DNA from: Azospirillaceae bacterium
GTDB taxonomy: Bacteria; Pseudomonadota; Alphaproteobacteria; Azospirillales; Azospirillaceae
NCBI GenBank assembly: GCA_035645145.1
Contig: DASQNC010000012.1
Location: forward strand, 1 to 38,470
Direction of reading: 5' to 3'
Length of the DNA stretch: 38,470 nucleotides
Made by a program: the position numbers and the translations under genes. The notes under the pieces are model-generated. The model did not search any database. It was not told the DNA's origin and was given only the letters and a program-made list of their open reading frames with translations. Positions 16,018-23,340 of this stretch are shown here, piece after piece (the first letter of the stretch is position 1; the number at the start of each line of letters is the position of its first letter).

Positions 16018-16050
16018 TCCGCCCGCGCCCCCACGCAGGATGTGAAGGCC

Positions 16051-17346
16051 ATGACCGTCGATCTCACCGACATCGAACGCGCGTTGCTGGATGGGCGCAC
16101 CAAGGGCATGCCCGGCGGCGTCGGTCCCGTGCTCCTGGCCGATGTGGGCGGGAAGGGGTGGAACCTGCTGGCGGAGGATCTGCCGCTGCCGGCCTGCGTG
16201 CTGCGGGAATCCGCCCTCGCCCGCAACGAGGCGTGGATGGGCGCCTTCCTGGAGCGCACGGGCGCGGTGATCTCGCCCCATGGCAAGACGACCATGAGCC
16301 CGCAGCTCTTCAAGCGGCAGTTGGACCAGGGCGCCTGGGCCATCACCGTGGGCAACATCCACCAGCTTCAGGTGGCCCGGCACTATGGCTTTCCGCGCAT
16401 CGTGCTGGCCAACCAGCTCGTCGGACGGCAGGCGGTCCGGTTCGTGCTGGACGAAATGGCCCGCGATCCATCGTTCGACTTCTACTGCCTGGTGGACTCC
16501 GTGGCCCTTGTGGAGCGGCTGGCGGAGGCCGCGCGCGCGGCGGGCGTCGGCCGGCCGCTGAACGTCTTTCTGGAAGGCGGCTTCGCCGGCGGGCGCACAG
16601 GCGTGCGGGACAAGGCCACCGGCCTGGCGGTGGCGCGCGCGGTCAAGGCCGCCGCCCCGGTTTTGGCCCTGCGCGGGGTGGAAGGGTTCGAGGGGCTGAT
16701 TTCCGGCGACGGCCGGGCCGAGCGGGTCGGGGCGTTCCTGGACTTCCTGATGGACCTCGCCCGCACGGCGGATGCCGAGGATCTGTTCGCCCCCGGCCCG
16801 GTGATCCTGACGGCGGGCGGATCGGCCTATTACGACATCGTCGCGGAAAAACTGTCGGCGGCGGATCTTCGGCGCGAGGCCATGGTCCTGACCCGCAGCG
16901 GCTGCTACCTGACCCATGACTCCGGCATGTACGCCAAGAGCTTCGCGGACATCCAGGCGCGCTCGGCCCTGGCCCGCGACCTGGGCGAGGTCGAAGCCGC
17001 GCTGGAGGTCTGGGCCTATGTGCAATCACGGCCCGAGCCGAACCGGGTCCTGGTGACCATGGGCAAGCGCGACACCGCCTTCGATGGCGACTGGCCGACG
17101 CCACTGAAGTGGCACCGTTCGGGGGGTGGCGGCGCGGCGCCGGCCCCGATGCCGCCCGGCCACCGGATGACCGGCATGAACGACCAGCACGGCTATCTGG
17201 AGGTGCCCGCGGACAGCCCGCTTCAGGTCGGCGACATGGTGGGCTTCGGGGTCACGCACCCATGCCTCACCTTCGACCGCTGGCAGCTCATCTTCCTGGT
17301 GGACGATGCCTACACGGTGACCGGGGCGGTGCGGACGTTCTTCTGA
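16051..17346 (+). CDS. Alanine-racemase-fold PLP enzyme, D-serine dehydratase / D-threonine aldolase-like (COG3616)
   Basis: 431 residues. Lys79 in SPHGKTTMSPQLFKRQ is the PLP Schiff-base lysine of the fold-type III family; GGFAGGRTGV and TAGGSAYYDIV are barrel phosphate-binding segments; THDSGMY (288-294) and THPCLTF (402-408) follow. His403 and Cys405 match the zinc pair described for eukaryotic-type D-serine dehydratase. Family members deaminate D-serine and other beta-hydroxy D-amino acids or cleave D-threonine. It ends the pyrimidine operon, yet beta-alanine is not a substrate type known to me for this family, so its role here is open. The start at 16051 was chosen over GTG 16042 because the latter is too close to its AGGA. 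Confidence 0.82.
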   Translation: MTVDLTDIERALLDGRTKGMPGGVGPVLLADVGGKGWNLLAEDLPLPACVLRESALARNEAWMGAFLERTGAVISPHGKTTMSPQLFKRQLDQGAWAITVGNIHQLQVARHYGFPRIVLANQLVGRQAVRFVLDEMARDPSFDFYCLVDSVALVERLAEAARAAGVGRPLNVFLEGGFAGGRTGVRDKATGLAVARAVKAAAPVLALRGVEGFEGLISGDGRAERVGAFLDFLMDLARTADAEDLFAPGPVILTAGGSAYYDIVAEKLSAADLRREAMVLTRSGCYLTHDSGMYAKSFADIQARSALARDLGEVEAALEVWAYVQSRPEPNRVLVTMGKRDTAFDGDWPTPLKWHRSGGGGAAPAPMPPGHRMTGMNDQHGYLEVPADSPLQVGDMVGFGVTHPCLTFDRWQLIFLVDDAYTVTGAVRTFF

Positions 17347-17347
17347 T

Positions 17348-17381
17348 ACCGGCGAGCGCATGTATTCCTGCGCTCGCCGGT
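17348..17381 (+). terminator. Terminator of the catabolic operon, 13-bp perfect stem
   Basis: ACCGGCGAGCGCA (17348-17360), loop TGTATTCC, exact complement (17369-17381), followed by TGTTC. It starts right after the stop codon. The stretch CTGATACCGGCGAGCGCATGT is a near copy of the one after the dihydropyrimidinase gene (position 14505 on). Confidence 0.7.
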
Positions 17382-17704
17382 TGTTCATCCCCTCATAGGC
17401 CGGCACCCCCCAGGTTTGTATCTCCGCCCCCGGCGCCGGGGAGTACATCCGCGCCGGGCGGAGTCCAAAATGAGAAGGCGGGCAGAGGTCCTGGTCCCTC
17501 CGTCGGGTCCCCTGGGGCCTTGATGATCGCGTCTGGGTGATATCCCGACGCGATCCAAGTCATGTGAACCCCGGTTTAACAATGCCGCTCTTTCATGGGG
17601 CTTCGGGTCAATCGCAGCCAGCGGTCATGTCGTTCCCCTAAGGGGCGCGCCGGCGACGTCAGCATTGCCGTTGTCCCGAGACCCAACTGCACGCCGGAAG
17701 GCCC
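17382..17704. other. Intergenic region with one palindrome
   Basis: About 320 bases with no convincing gene. It contains GATCGCGTC (17525-17533) and its exact complement (17547-17555) spaced by 13 bases, with inner GGG/CCC extending the stem. This may be a further terminator or an operator for the lipoprotein gene at 17705. GC content drops towards the lipoprotein gene. Confidence 0.45.
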
Positions 17705-18328
17705 ATGCCCCGACAAAGCCGTTACCGGGCAAAACTCCCGGATCGATACACGTTCCTGCGGGGAATATCGGCCCTGGGCGTCGTCCTGATCGCCGTTGCG
17801 GGATGCAGGCCGCCCGTGCCGCTGACCCGGGCCAGCGACGAGTCCAGTATCTTCGCACAGGCATACAGGGACTATCGGATGATGCGGGAAAGCGGCGATA
17901 TCGCTCCTGACCAAGACACTGTCGAGTATGCCGAATTCATCATCGGGAAAAGGTTTAAAACGTACTTTGACGATATTGTAAATGCCGGTGCCAAACGAGC
18001 GGATGCCATAGATGTTCTTGTGAAGAATGGGGCGGCCTGCAAAATCCTCAGTGTTTCCGATGGGGCATTTAGTTGCATCGGCGCGCCAATGGTATATGTG
18101 ACGTTCCCGCTTGGGGGTGGGATAATCGGCAGGAGCCGGGTCCAGATTTTGGTTGAGCAGTTGAGTCCCGGGTGCCAGCTGGGTACCCCGCAGATGATGG
18201 TTAGCGGGCGGGCCAAATACATTGCTGAAAATGTCGGATTTGGCCCGGATGTTATTAGTCAAGAATCGTTGGAGCATGCAGGTGAGGCTTATCAGAGTTT
18301 GATGGAACTGCGTCGCAGATGCGCCTGA
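17705..18328 (+). CDS. Predicted lipoprotein, Cys-conserved paralogue A (unknown family)
   Basis: 207 residues. A basic N-terminus (1-20) leads to a hydrophobic core ending LGVVLIAVAGC, a clear lipobox with Cys36 to be lipidated. The mature protein is paralogous to the one at 19604: shared blocks are SIFAQA, KRADAIDVLVKNGAACKI, SDGAFSCIGAP, QILVEQLSPGCQLGTPQ and a final RRRCA. Four cysteines (in AACK, FSCIG, SPGCQ and RRRC) are conserved between the two, so two disulfides are likely in the periplasm. The start has a GGAAGG site. Codon use is less GC-biased than in the catabolic genes (for instance GAAAATGTCGGATTTGGC), suggesting acquisition. Function not recognised. Confidence 0.8.
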   Translation: MPRQSRYRAKLPDRYTFLRGISALGVVLIAVAGCRPPVPLTRASDESSIFAQAYRDYRMMRESGDIAPDQDTVEYAEFIIGKRFKTYFDDIVNAGAKRADAIDVLVKNGAACKILSVSDGAFSCIGAPMVYVTFPLGGGIIGRSRVQILVEQLSPGCQLGTPQMMVSGRAKYIAENVGFGPDVISQESLEHAGEAYQSLMELRRRCA

Positions 18329-18521
18329 GGTTTTTACACCGCACCGCGCCCTGCTTGTCCGACAGCGCCACCACGCCCTTCCACAAAGGTGGTTCAACGC
18401 CAGCAACGGCACGGCGTTCCGGCACCAACAGGCCGTACCGCGCCGCGGCGCGGTTCCCCGACAGGCCACCGGAGGCCGCCCAACCGTGTCCTTCCGGAAA
18501 GCTGGGAAGGCGTCGTGGTCC

Positions 18522-19346
18522 TCAAGCGCGCCGACAATCGGCAAGCAGGTTCAACAGGCGATCCGTCAAAAGGTCAGGCTGTTCGAGGCTCGGCAGATGG
18601 GCGACGCCGGGCAGGATCTCGAGCCGAGCATCCGGAAGCGCCGCCGCGAGCTGGCGGCAGCGCGCCTGGATGTGCGGGACGTCCAGGTTTCCGCAAAGGA
18701 TCCGCACGGGAGCGGCAATCCGGTCGAGCCGGTCCCAGGCCGGGGCGGGTTGAAGAACGCGACCGATCACCGGGGCTGCCAACGCAATGCCGTTCATGGC
18801 CGCGAACAGTTCGCGCGCCGGTCCTTTGACGCGCCCCTGGTTCGCCAGCGGTCCATCCAGCCAGAGCGCCGCTTTCAGCCGGATCACCGGATCGAGGTCG
18901 CCGGACGTCCCGGCCAAATCGATCGCGTCGAGCAGGCGGCGGACAGCCTCATGGGGTGTTGCCGGGGGTGCTCCGCTGACCGACGGCGCGATCAGGACGA
19001 GCCCCGCGACGCGGTCGGGGGAGGCGAGGGTGGCATCGATCGCGATGCTGCCGCCCTGCGAGCAGCCGACCAGGATCACCGGCTTGCCGGGCCCCACCAG
19101 GTGGTCGACCACGGCGAACAAGTCGGCCGTTTGGCTGTAGGCCTCGTCGACTGCCGGCGTTTCACCAAAGCCACGGCGGTCGTACGCGATCACGTGATGG
19201 CGCGGGGCCAGCGCGGCAAGCTGGTGACGCCACATCCGACGGTCCGCGACGGCGGCGTGCAGGAAGACGACCGGTTGGCCGCCGCTGGCCCACTCGGCCA
19301 CGATCCGCGCGTTGCCGACAGGAACGATCCCCGATGTCGTCTGCAT
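18522..19346 (-). CDS. Alpha/beta hydrolase
   Basis: 274 residues. Core motifs: VVFLHAAVADRRMWRHQL (oxyanion-side HG-like loop), YDRRGFGET, nucleophile elbow GCSQGG with the catalytic serine, a helical cap around 140-205, LCGNLDVPH with the likely acid and GVAHLPSLEQ with the catalytic histidine. The triad therefore looks complete. The family covers esterases, lipases, haloperoxidase-like and C-C hydrolases; no specific substrate can be assigned. The start at 19346 was chosen because translation from further upstream (frame to 19457) has no family-like sequence; the ribosome-binding site GGACAGG is close to the start, so it remains uncertain. It lies between two paralogous lipoprotein genes and opposite to both. 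Confidence 0.85.
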   Translation of the reverse strand: MQTTSGIVPVGNARIVAEWASGGQPVVFLHAAVADRRMWRHQLAALAPRHHVIAYDRRGFGETPAVDEAYSQTADLFAVVDHLVGPGKPVILVGCSQGGSIAIDATLASPDRVAGLVLIAPSVSGAPPATPHEAVRRLLDAIDLAGTSGDLDPVIRLKAALWLDGPLANQGRVKGPARELFAAMNGIALAAPVIGRVLQPAPAWDRLDRIAAPVRILCGNLDVPHIQARCRQLAAALPDARLEILPGVAHLPSLEQPDLLTDRLLNLLADCRRA

Positions 19347-19377
19347 CCTGTCCAGAACTGGCAACGCATGTTGGGCT

Positions 19378-19426
19378 GGGATGACCCTAATCCCGGGCGG
19401 CAGCCTGGGCAACAGTTGGTCATCCC
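19378..19426. promoter_or_regulatory. Spaced 9-bp inverted repeat upstream of the hydrolase gene
   Basis: GGGATGACC (19378-19386) and GGTCATCCC (19418-19426) are exact complements 31 bases apart, lying 32-80 bases upstream of the alpha/beta hydrolase start. It could be an operator or a cruciform. No recognised regulator box fits. Confidence 0.35.
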
Positions 19427-19527
19427 TGTAACTTGACCGAAACTGGGTACGGCCCAAGCGCCCACCGGGCCTTAATCTTGCCCGCTGATTATTTGCGGTC
19501 TGGTGGTGGTGTTGATGTCAACTTTTA

Positions 19528-19556
19528 TTGACAAAGCGGGTTGGTAAGCTCGATTT
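19528..19556 (+). promoter_or_regulatory. Candidate promoter for the second lipoprotein gene
   Basis: TTGACA at 19528-19533 is followed after 17 bases by CGATTT at 19551-19556, in an AT-richer stretch about 50 bases before the start codon at 19604. The -35 is perfect but the -10 is poor. The partial palindrome GTTGATGTCAAC just upstream could be a regulator site. Confidence 0.35.
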
Positions 19557-19603
19557 TCCCTGAATGGTTGTAGGGTGATTTCGGCTCGCGCGGTGAGGGG
19601 CTC

Positions 19604-20173
19604 ATGTCTCGCAGGTGCCACTGCCGTACGGGTTTGAGGGAGCGACGTGCGCCCCTGCGGGCGCTGTTGGCCCTGGGCGTTCTTCTAATCGCCGTTGCGG
19701 GATGCGGATCCCACCCGCCCCTGACCCCGGCTAGTGTGGAGACCAGCATCTTCGCTCAGGCCGTCAAGGACCGAAACGCTGCCATGATGAGGGGGCAAAG
19801 TGTCTGGGGTGAGGAGGCTCTCGAGATGACTTTCCGAGCCCGTCTGTCAGCACACGTAAATGCTCAGAGCAAGCGTGCGGACGTGATTGAGGTACTTGTA
19901 CGGCATGGGGCGACGTGCCTGATCCACAACGCTTCGGATGGCACATTCACGTGCGTTGGCGTGCCGCGTGTTCCAATTGAGGGCCCGTTTGGAATTGGCG
20001 TGATGGGCCATGGGCATGCCCAGATCGCTGTCGAGCAGTTGCAGCCGGGCTGCAAATTCGGTGTGCCCGAAATCACCATTGAAACGGCATTCGTACCGCT
20101 CAGGCCTGAAGCGCAGTCAAGCACCAGGGACATTGCGCAAGACCTATCGGCATTGCGCCAGCGCTGCACTTAG
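19604..20173 (+). CDS. Predicted lipoprotein, Cys-conserved paralogue B (unknown family)
   Basis: 189 residues. Arg-rich N-terminus, hydrophobic segment and lipobox LGVLLIAVAGC (Cys34). It aligns along its length with the protein at 17705: SIFAQA, KRADVIEVLVRHGATCLI, SDGTFTCVGVP, QIAVEQLQPGCKFGVPE and terminal LRQRCT, again with four matching cysteines in the mature part. The DNA over the lipobox is almost identical between the two genes (ATCGCCGTTGCGGGATGC in both), while other parts have diverged, so this is an old duplication with a constrained signal region. The ribosome-binding site GAGGGG lies 4 bases before the start. No family recognised; probably an envelope lipoprotein. Confidence 0.8.
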   Translation: MSRRCHCRTGLRERRAPLRALLALGVLLIAVAGCGSHPPLTPASVETSIFAQAVKDRNAAMMRGQSVWGEEALEMTFRARLSAHVNAQSKRADVIEVLVRHGATCLIHNASDGTFTCVGVPRVPIEGPFGIGVMGHGHAQIAVEQLQPGCKFGVPEITIETAFVPLRPEAQSSTRDIAQDLSALRQRCT

Positions 20174-20213: not shown

Positions 20214-20894
20214 TCAGCTCGTCCACCCCTTCGCGACCCCTTCCAGGCGCCGGATCTCGCGCTGCAACGTCTCGATGCGCTTCAGCATGTTCTGGCGCTT
20301 CTCCTCCAGCATCGCCAGATGCCGTTCCTTGGCGATCCGCGCCGAGGCGCGGTTCGGGTACTCGCGGTTCAGGTAGGAGCGGGCGAACAGGCCGGTGCGC
20401 TTCACCGGGACCATGCTGTCCTGCCACATCCGCTCGCGCATCTCGGTGGCGAGCGTCAGCAGGTCCAGGATCTCCTTGTCCACGTCCAGGATGCGCATGC
20501 GGGCGTCGCGCATCCGCTGCTGGCGCTCCATGGCGGCGCGGTTCTTGGCGACCTGGTATTCGGCCCCGGTGGAATAGAGCAGGTATTCCCGCCCCATCTT
20601 CTTGGCCGTCGCCCGCAGCGCGTAGCGGTAGACCTCGTCGATCGCGTCCTGGTCGTTGGCCAGCGGCAGCCCGGCGGTGTCCGGATGCGCACAGGCCTCG
20701 TCCAGGACCGAGCCGACCACCGCCTTGAGGGCGCTGTGGCAGATCCGCTCCATGTCGAGTTCGTCCTGCAGGCGGCGGATCTGCTCGCGCAGCAGGCTGG
20801 TGTCCTCGTTCAGTGGCAAGGAGTCCGGTGGCGTGCCCGCAACCGGCGTGCTGCCGTCGCTGGCCGGAAGGTCGGATGTGCTGATGCTGCCCAT
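20214..20894 (-). CDS. Coiled-coil protein of unknown function
   Basis: 226 residues. A short disordered N-terminus rich in Ser/Asp/Pro (1-30) precedes LREQIRRLQDELDMERICHS (coiled coil), a helical middle with YRYALRATAKKMGREYLLYS, a second long charged helix (KNRAAMERQQRMRDARMRIL) and a third (MLEEKRQNMLKRIETLQREI) that ends the protein. No signal peptide or membrane segment. The start at 20894 has GGTGG about 8 bases upstream; an in-frame ATG at 20930 would add 12 residues. It is divergent from the SUV3-like helicase, 235 bases apart. Family not recognised; a structural or adaptor role would fit but is not shown. Confidence 0.7.
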   Translation of the reverse strand: MGSISTSDLPASDGSTPVAGTPPDSLPLNEDTSLLREQIRRLQDELDMERICHSALKAVVGSVLDEACAHPDTAGLPLANDQDAIDEVYRYALRATAKKMGREYLLYSTGAEYQVAKNRAAMERQQRMRDARMRILDVDKEILDLLTLATEMRERMWQDSMVPVKRTGLFARSYLNREYPNRASARIAKERHLAMLEEKRQNMLKRIETLQREIRRLEGVAKGWTS

Positions 20895-21129: not shown

Positions 21130-23340
21130 ATGAGCACGACCGAATCCGGTGAAGCCGCCCTCGACCCGCATCTCGTCCACGACATCGCCAGCCGGCATCC
21201 GGAAGTGACCAGCCTGGCCGCGGCCGGCCTGAGCCGGATCGAGCATGCCGAGCTGATGGGGCTGGTGCCGCTGGGCCTGCCGCTGCCCAAGGGCAAGCGC
21301 GACCTGCTGGTGCCCCTGGAGCGGAAGGAGGCCGTGCTGCGCGAGGTTGAGGGCGGCCTGCAACGGGCGCTCCGGCGCAACGCGTTGCTGGAGCAGGGGC
21401 GCCGGGCGCTCGCCGGTTCGCACCTGTCGTTGAAGGCGGCCGAGGACCGCACGCGGGTGATCGCGGTCGCCCACGAAATCCTGCCCTGGCCCGGCTTCCG
21501 CGAGCCCTTGCGCCTGCACGCGCTCAAATCCTTCGACGCGGACGAACTGGCCGACCGGACGGATACCGAACTCCTGGCCCGGCTGGCGGGGGATCCCGAC
21601 CTGGGCCGGCGTGCCGAGGAGGCCGTCGCGCGCGTGTCGGAACGGTTGCAGGATCTGGCGACGCGGGTGGGGCAGGCGGACGACAGTTGGACGTTCGAAA
21701 ACCTGGTCGAACGCCTGTCCCGGGCCGCGCGCAACCGGCACGACCCGAACGACATCCTGCGGCGCTGGGAGGAGACGTTCGACACCTGGCTCGGCGAACG
21801 CGCCCAGGCGCGCGGCCGCGCCTTCGTGGACACCCATTTCGACCTCGCCCGCTTCGAACAGCTTTTCCCCGTCGCCCGCGGGCTGGGGCGCAAACTGGTG
21901 CTGGTCGTCGGACCGACCAACTCCGGCAAGACCCACCGGGCGGTCGAGGCGCTGAAGGCGGCCAAGTCTGGCATCTATCTGGCGCCGCTGCGCCTGCTGG
22001 CGTTGGAGATCATGGACCGCCTGAACAACGAGGGCACGCCGACCACGCTGTTGACCGGCGAGGAGGAGATCCGCGTGCCCGAGGCCCGGCACATCGCGTC
22101 CACGATCGAAATGCTGGATCCGGAACGGCCGGTGGACGTGGTGGTGATCGACGAGGTGCAGATGCTGGCCGATCCGGACCGGGGCTGGGCCTGGACGGCG
22201 GCGCTGATGGGGGCGCCGGGACGCACCGTGTACATCCTGGGCGCGCCCGAGGCCCGTCCGCTGGTCGAAAAGGCGGCGGCGCATCTGGGCGAGCCGTTGG
22301 AGGTGATCGAACTGGATCGCAAGGGGCCGCTGATCCTGCTGGAAAACCGCGTGGAATGGGCAGACGTCCAGCGTGGCGACGCCCTGATCGCCTTTTCCCG
22401 GCGCGAGGTGCATGCCGTGCGCGAAACCGTGCAGGCCCGTGGCCTTGCCGCCGCCGTCATCTACGGGGCGTTGGCCCCGGACGTGCGCCGGCGCGAGGCC
22501 GAACGGTTCCTGTCCGGCGAGGCCGACGTGGTGGTGGCGACCGATGCCATCGGCATGGGCCTGAACCTGCCCGTGCGCCGCATCCTGTTCACCGCGCTCG
22601 AGAAATTCGACGGGAACGAGGTCCGGCCCCTGGCCACGGCTGAAATCAAGCAGATCGCCGGCCGTGCCGGGCGTTTCGGCAAGGTGGACGTGGGCGAGTT
22701 CGGGGTGGTCGGCCGTGGAACGCCGCAGGCCCTGAAGGCGCTGCTGAACCGCCCGGACCCCCGGCTGGGCCCATCCACCCCGCTGAAGGTCCGCCCGACG
22801 CGCGGGATGCTGCAGCGCCTGGCCCGGCACATCGGGTCCGAGGACCTGGTCCTGCTGCTGGACTGCTTCGCCACCGCCAAGACCGCGGGTTCGCCCTACC
22901 GCGTGGCCGATCTGGGGCCGGTGCGGCGCCTGGCCGCCATGCTGGACGAACGGCCGCTGGATTTCGCGGACAAGCTCGACCTGCTGTTCATCCCGGCCGA
23001 CATGGAACGGGACACGGATGCCGACCTGTTCCGCTCGGTCTGCCGGGCGATCCTGCGTGACACGCCGCTGGCCTTGGATCAGGTCGTGCCGGCCCGCATC
23101 GACACCCTGGACACCCAGCAGTTGGAGGACGCCTCGCGCGTGTGCGACCTGTATTACTGGGCCGCGCGCAAGTTCCCCCGCCTGTTCCCGGACCGCGAAC
23201 GGGTCCGCGTCCGCCGGGCCGCCATCGGCGAGCGGTTGAGCGAGGTGTTGGCCGCACGCTCGCGCCGGTCGCGGACCCAGGCGGCGAAGCCGGGATTCCG
23301 CGGTGCCCCGCGCAAGCGCTACGGCCCGCGCCGGCGATAG
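21130..23340 (+). CDS. SUV3-like DExH-box RNA helicase
   Basis: 736 residues. Helicase motif I is GPTNSGKTHRAVEAL (about 261-275), followed by GIYLAPLRLLALEIMDRLN (Ia), DEVQMLADPDRGWAW (motif II, about 340-355), an ILGAPEA motif III, AFSRREVHAVRE (IV), VVVATDAIGMGLNLPVRRI (V) and QIAGRAGRFG (VI, about 507-516). This order and wording match mitochondrial SUV3, an RNA helicase of the degradosome, whose closest bacterial relatives occur in alphaproteobacteria. The first 240 residues are a helical domain without a recognised motif; the tail after 700 is Arg-rich and probably binds RNA. Role in RNA turnover or ribosome maturation is inferred. No obvious ribosome-binding site. Confidence 0.88.
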   Translation: MSTTESGEAALDPHLVHDIASRHPEVTSLAAAGLSRIEHAELMGLVPLGLPLPKGKRDLLVPLERKEAVLREVEGGLQRALRRNALLEQGRRALAGSHLSLKAAEDRTRVIAVAHEILPWPGFREPLRLHALKSFDADELADRTDTELLARLAGDPDLGRRAEEAVARVSERLQDLATRVGQADDSWTFENLVERLSRAARNRHDPNDILRRWEETFDTWLGERAQARGRAFVDTHFDLARFEQLFPVARGLGRKLVLVVGPTNSGKTHRAVEALKAAKSGIYLAPLRLLALEIMDRLNNEGTPTTLLTGEEEIRVPEARHIASTIEMLDPERPVDVVVIDEVQMLADPDRGWAWTAALMGAPGRTVYILGAPEARPLVEKAAAHLGEPLEVIELDRKGPLILLENRVEWADVQRGDALIAFSRREVHAVRETVQARGLAAAVIYGALAPDVRRREAERFLSGEADVVVATDAIGMGLNLPVRRILFTALEKFDGNEVRPLATAEIKQIAGRAGRFGKVDVGEFGVVGRGTPQALKALLNRPDPRLGPSTPLKVRPTRGMLQRLARHIGSEDLVLLLDCFATAKTAGSPYRVADLGPVRRLAAMLDERPLDFADKLDLLFIPADMERDTDADLFRSVCRAILRDTPLALDQVVPARIDTLDTQQLEDASRVCDLYYWAARKFPRLFPDRERVRVRRAAIGERLSEVLAARSRRSRTQAAKPGFRGAPRKRYGPRRR

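Follow-up and report, generated by a model that had tools for sequence, protein, structure and literature searches.

Two small proteins encoded on either side of an opposite-strand hydrolase gene raise the question of what they are: whether they belong to a catalogued family, whether they are associated with the hydrolase between them, and what role they might have at the cell envelope. The window (the whole stretch of DNA analysed, 38,470 bases) is the entire contig C12, one of the 74 contigs of a 3.9 Mb genome. Both lipoprotein ORFs, here called lipoA and lipoB, are intact and lie where the sequence-only reading had placed them. The features considered are:

16042-17346: dehydratase-domain gene (PF14031), on one side of the pair
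17705..18328, plus strand: lipoA, putative orphan lipoprotein precursor, 207 aa (ORF list, alignment)
17957..18208, plus strand: lipoA conserved core, KRAD...GAAC...SDGAFSC...VEQLSPGC (input for core profile A2)
18483..19438, minus strand: probably separately acquired block of 956 bases, outside the lipoprotein pair (DNA match to Microvirga ossetica plasmid NZ_CP016619.1)
18522..19346, minus strand: alpha/beta hydrolase within the block (ATG start at 19346; Pfam Abhydrolase_6)
19604..20173, plus strand: lipoB, putative orphan lipoprotein precursor, 189 aa (ORF list, alignment)
19832..20083, plus strand: lipoB conserved core (input for core profile A2)
20214-20894, minus strand: coiled-coil-like gene, on the other side of the pair, divergent from the helicase
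21130-23340, plus strand: Suv3-type helicase gene (PF22527)

The open frame of the hydrolase extends back to a TTG at 19457, and the Abhydrolase_6 match was made with the 18522-19457 frame. A Pfam scan of eight other window proteins matched six to amidohydrolase, peptidase M20, serine-dehydratase, helicase, solute-binding or methyltransferase families; the remaining two gave, respectively, a sub-cutoff leucine-zipper match alone and no Pfam match. The rest of the window was surveyed as an ORF list only. The window contains no tRNA, and promoter and terminator scans revealed nothing telling before lipoA or lipoB (1 terminator-like site, 2.8 expected).

Other features of the window were observed in passing. 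A palindromic stretch right after the dehydratase-like gene (17347-17389) matches several contigs of the same genome (C49, C9, C74, C37) with 79-88% identity and E-values of 0.007 to 0.17, two of which reached 1.7e-4 and 3.2e-4 in another search; it is possibly a dispersed REP-like hairpin. A methyltransferase-domain ORF near the contig end (36156-37202) has a GC3 of 0.54, unlike its GC-rich neighbours, and is possibly a recent arrival. The start of the ORF at 2259-2990 resembles a lipoprotein signal (LLGIAAC), and its product has no Pfam match at E <= 0.001.

Divergence of lipoA and lipoB under purifying selection

Alignment of lipoA with lipoB shows 81 identical residues out of 206 (BLASTP E = 6e-45). 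The mature chains alone score 105 bits, whereas 170 of 500 shuffled copies gave an alignment, scoring 21.6 at most. The shared motifs named in the sequence-only reading can all be read from this alignment: the lipobox AVAGC, KRAD-I-VLV--GA-C, SDG-F-C-G-P, Q--VEQL-PGC--G-P and a final R-C. All four mature cysteines align (C112, C124, C157 and C206 in lipoA; C105, C117, C150 and C188 in lipoB), and neither mature chain contains a further Cys besides the lipobox Cys34; the lipoB signal peptide holds two additional cysteines, Cys5 and Cys7. The description of the two proteins as diverged paralogues with four conserved mature cysteines is thus borne out. Because four random aligned mature columns would all be identical with a probability of ~0.026 (63 of 155 columns are identical), the cysteine match alone is only modestly informative.

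Identity is distributed unevenly, with 31/56 for the N-terminal stretch including the signal peptide and 38/72 in the core. Between these two regions, in columns 57-91, it is nearly nil, at 3/28 aligned residues. The divergence of the pair thereby marks the residues that matter, namely the cysteine-bearing core.

Comparison of the two genes over 189 codons in a protein-guided alignment revealed 78, 67 and 110 differences at codon positions 1, 2 and 3, respectively (chi-square p = 0.003), with dN = 0.54 and dS = 1.52 (NG86), corresponding to a dN/dS of ~0.35. The excess at third positions, together with dN < dS, indicates that both copies have been kept as proteins, and the near-saturation of dS points to a duplication that is old on the scale of synonymous change. 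These results indicate that lipoA and lipoB diverged under purifying selection. The presence of two copies, the E-value of 6e-45, the third-position excess and dN < dS also support real coding genes as opposed to chance ORFs. Exactly two copies, lipoA and lipoB, were found in their own genome in a search at E up to 10. Selection can be read from a diverged orphan pair, whereas a single orphan gene cannot reveal it from one sequence.

Search for families and relatives

The sequence-only reading knew no family with this pattern, and the search meant to refute that claim placed neither protein in a characterised one: no convincing match was found in Pfam, NCBIfam, PHROGs, PADLOC or PDB sequences. 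The listed matches, AnkI (E = 0.035), LptM (E = 1.5) and an Rz-like spanin (E = 0.22) for lipoB and phrog_18004 (E = 0.2) for lipoA, were unconvincing. PADLOC returned no family for lipoA or lipoB up to E = 1, and the best PDB match was tankyrase (E = 2.2).

Relatives were sought in other genomes. A single-sequence search with lipoA gave no match in 38 other relatives. Profile searches returned chance-level matches only in 81 other genomes of the family, in 384 other sampled genomes of the class (up to 8 candidates scored per genome), and in 397 other sampled genomes of the phylum (up to 13 candidates per genome). The 78 genomes of another class gave no match, a result that is uninformative as this search had no positive control. 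A two-sequence profile reaches moderately distant relatives only, and the class and phylum were sampled, so that an unseen relative may exist. In one other species of the genus, neither lipoA nor the full profile found a match; a core profile match in it (E = 0.136) was at chance level and proved to be an unrelated frame when read. Pattern scans of GTDB and IMG/VR with two profiles confirmed no relative; these scans require near-exact peptide stretches and may omit records of the window itself or very close to it. No plasmid record matched lipoA at E <= 0.1, and the one match in a further plasmid search, from Ochrobactrum (E = 0.5), was rejected as weak. Among phages, one protein shared by two Erwinia phages matched with E = 0.08 (35.8% over 66 residues), and was judged to be chance.

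Outside the own genome, weak profile matches numbered 6 in the family, 4 in the class, 2 in the phylum, and 36 in the family with the core profile (29 with loci). The matched stretches were read at 40 loci, including the 29 core-profile loci, and one match (G239) was read as a complete ORF as well. Sixteen of the 29 core-profile matches are the RuvC C-terminus. Pfam confirmed this name on two sequences, the entire ORF of L039 and a single stretch (as in L051); the others were assigned by their near-identical letters. This recurrent false match arises because the RuvC C-terminus (MMVERLLPGC, L039:1189-1704) mimics the VEQL-PGC--G-P block. The other matches read appeared by eye to be unrelated proteins or shadow-like frames, and one locus (L050) contains a two-cysteine stretch resembling the hairpin, deep within an open frame of 797 residues. 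The GA-C...C pair does not occur together with the VEQL-PGC block in any of the stretches read.

None of the titles listed in literature searches deals with this pair. The suggestion that the proteins are lineage-specific fits their narrow distribution, as these searches found no homologue beyond their own genome, the same-genus species included. The best reading is that the pair constitutes a taxonomically restricted (ORFan) family. Orphan lipoproteins are common, and the pair is a real, functionally unassigned orphan family of this common kind.

The hydrolase block and the history of the locus

By coordinates, the pair does flank an opposite-strand hydrolase gene, as had been claimed. The association that this implied did not hold up, as the block containing the hydrolase matches a Microvirga plasmid by itself. 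The block (18483-19438, gene flanks included) is identical to NZ_CP016619.1 265839-266793 from Microvirga ossetica at 829 of 959 positions (86% DNA identity), and the hydrolase protein is 83-84% identical to the Microvirga protein. In comparison, the helicase gene shows 69-73% DNA identity to five members of the family, and its best matches among plasmid records are from Azospirillum, with 66-67% identity in the six listed, which suggests an alphaproteobacterial host near Azospirillum. In the class sample of 384 other genomes, only two match the block at E <= 1e-20, partially and with 65-67% identity (two candidates scored per genome). The 12.7 kb around the block in the M. ossetica plasmid contain no lipoprotein match at E <= 1, and the gap between lipoA and the hydrolase has no plasmid protein match. 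No target duplication was found at the block ends, the longest direct word shared near the two junctions being 7 bases.

The 86% match to the Microvirga plasmid indicates that the block has a history separate from that of the pair. Judging from these alignments, the block probably moved by itself between distant bacteria, in either direction, and the hydrolase is probably not a functional partner of the pair. Removal of the 956-base block from the 1275 bases between lipoA and lipoB leaves ~320 bases. The two genes were probably adjacent, about 320 bases apart, before the block arrived; this order of events is a reconstruction, and no uninterrupted version was found.

The adjacency of the three genes could also be taken to mean that the pair and the hydrolase were acquired as one unit, with the lipoproteins serving the hydrolase. 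We consider this very improbable, as the hydrolase is on the opposite strand, the block occurs in M. ossetica without a lipoprotein match in the surrounding 12.7 kb, no plasmid record matches lipoA at E <= 0.1, and the hydrolase gene has a GC content of 0.696, unlike lipoA (0.557) and lipoB (0.612). The hydrolase thus serves here as a warning against inferring function from adjacency.

GC3 is 0.61 in lipoA and 0.67 in lipoB; the hydrolase has a GC3 of 0.81, and four other neighbours have values of 0.90-0.94. The lower GC of the pair suggests a later arrival or weaker codon selection, and composition favours neither; it could also reflect drift.

The gene neighbourhood was examined in relatives. 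A homologue of the coiled-coil protein (48% identical to the 20214-20894 product) is present in the same-genus species in a different gene context. The dehydratase-like gene and the helicase are ~1 Mb apart in one relative (G007). In another (G001), the dehydratase-like gene lies on contig C51, and the stretches examined contain no full helicase match, just one of 41% across 277 residues, located on C160. In four more (G002, G003, G006, G011), a DNA search matched the helicase and not the dehydratase-like gene. Because the neighbouring genes are apart or unmatched in relatives, no empty site can be read. The relatives' stretches around the neighbour genes contain no lipoprotein match at E <= 1.

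Predicted location, structure and role

Bacterial lipoboxes follow the pattern [LVI][ASTVI][GAS]C. In RYTFLRGISALGVVLIAVAGC and LRALLALGVLLIAVAGC, a charged n-region, a hydrophobic h-region and a lipobox were read from the alignment by eye. Both precursors would carry a type II signal peptide, with lipidation expected on Cys34, and on this sequence evidence each is a probable membrane-anchored secreted protein. The destination of lipoproteins in E. coli is governed by a sorting rule on the +2 residue. By this rule, the Arg or Gly at +2 would direct the two proteins to the outer membrane, facing the periplasm.

AlphaFold2 models built from two-row alignments had a mean pLDDT of 43.6 for whole lipoA and 56.4 for mature lipoB, with much of the sheet region below 50. 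The low-confidence model of mature lipoB contains helices at 8-28 and 36-66, six strands within 69-126, and a helix at 134-154; C71 and C83 are in the first two strands, C116 is outside the strands, and C154 is at the end of the C-terminal helix. The mature domain is therefore predicted by the model to consist of helices followed by an antiparallel sheet and, last, a C-terminal helix. The four cysteines would most likely form two internal disulfides: one between 71 and 83 (mature lipoB numbering), 12 residues apart in the first two strands, and one between 116 and 154, the third Cys lying in a loop, potentially within reach of the end of the C-terminal helix. A Foldseek search of PDB and viral libraries with the mature lipoB model gave no match at E <= 0.001, which says little given the weakness of the model. 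VIA-align against 431 solved chains placed the AMPK and SAD-B C-terminal domains in the top rows (Z 5.0-5.3, best Z 5.3, with the low-confidence model); Z-scores of 4.8-5.3 are below the telling level according to the tool's note, and possibly reflect only a common arrangement. As the models are too weak, we name no fold, and the fixed disulfide pattern suggested by the sequence-only reading stays a prediction.

We propose that the pair are duplicated ORFan outer-membrane lipoproteins, braced by disulfides, with a non-catalytic role at the envelope, and assign this reading a probability of roughly 0.55. The pair would have arisen by duplication, probably in tandem, and then diverged. The proteins may bind or cap something at the envelope, and each copy may have become specialised for its own partners or conditions. 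The most economical reading is that of an outer-membrane lipoprotein with a non-catalytic role.

Alternatively, the pair could be far-diverged members of a known fold class of small envelope lipoproteins, for example that of the BamC N-terminal domain or of a different accessory lipoprotein in envelope assembly, with sequences that have drifted too far to be recognised. The predicted order of elements fits such a class (helix, antiparallel sheet, C-terminal helix), and the BamC N-terminal domain ranked sixth among the 431 chains (Z 4.8 over 97 residues) and third in Foldseek (E = 0.67, probability 0.25). However, BamC is tied with the AMPK and SAD-B domains, all below the telling level, the weak model has no Foldseek match at the threshold given above, and no PDB chain matches in sequence; we therefore regard this alternative as unlikely. 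Small size, lipid anchoring, low GC, orphan status, duplication and divergence are common traits of envelope conflict proteins, and lipoA and lipoB, being small, probably lipid-anchored, low in GC, orphan and duplicated, and having diverged strongly outside the cysteine-bearing core (columns 57-91), could be immunity or phage-exclusion lipoproteins diverging under an arms race. This is improbable in view of the lack of a PADLOC match, the overall dN/dS below 1, and the families matched by six of the eight other Pfam-scanned window proteins. We give equally little credence to the pair being a new, single-species family of disulfide-braced envelope lipoproteins whose copies are engaged in an arms race (phage exclusion or contact-toxin immunity) instead of housekeeping.

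The preferred reading, a duplicated ORFan lipoprotein pair, offers a tractable case for asking what species-specific envelope genes do. Like other bacterial lipoproteins with a type II signal peptide, the two proteins have a charged N-terminus, a hydrophobic stretch and the lipobox V-A-G-C, whereas their mature domain has no match in the catalogued families searched. The N-terminal domain of BamC (PDB 2laf), also part of a lipoprotein, resembles the pair in the predicted order of helix, sheet and helix, but with 16% identity, a weak model, no sequence match and a tie with unrelated domains, membership is not claimed. For E. coli, van Passel et al. 2008 (PMC2275313) name ORFans, along with genes whose homologues are distant, as a major source of novel strain features, and find ORFans much more likely to persist. 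As with those E. coli ORFans, no homologue of the pair was found; unlike them, lipoA and lipoB are diverged duplicates, and this gives evidence of selection that is beyond the reach of a single ORFan.
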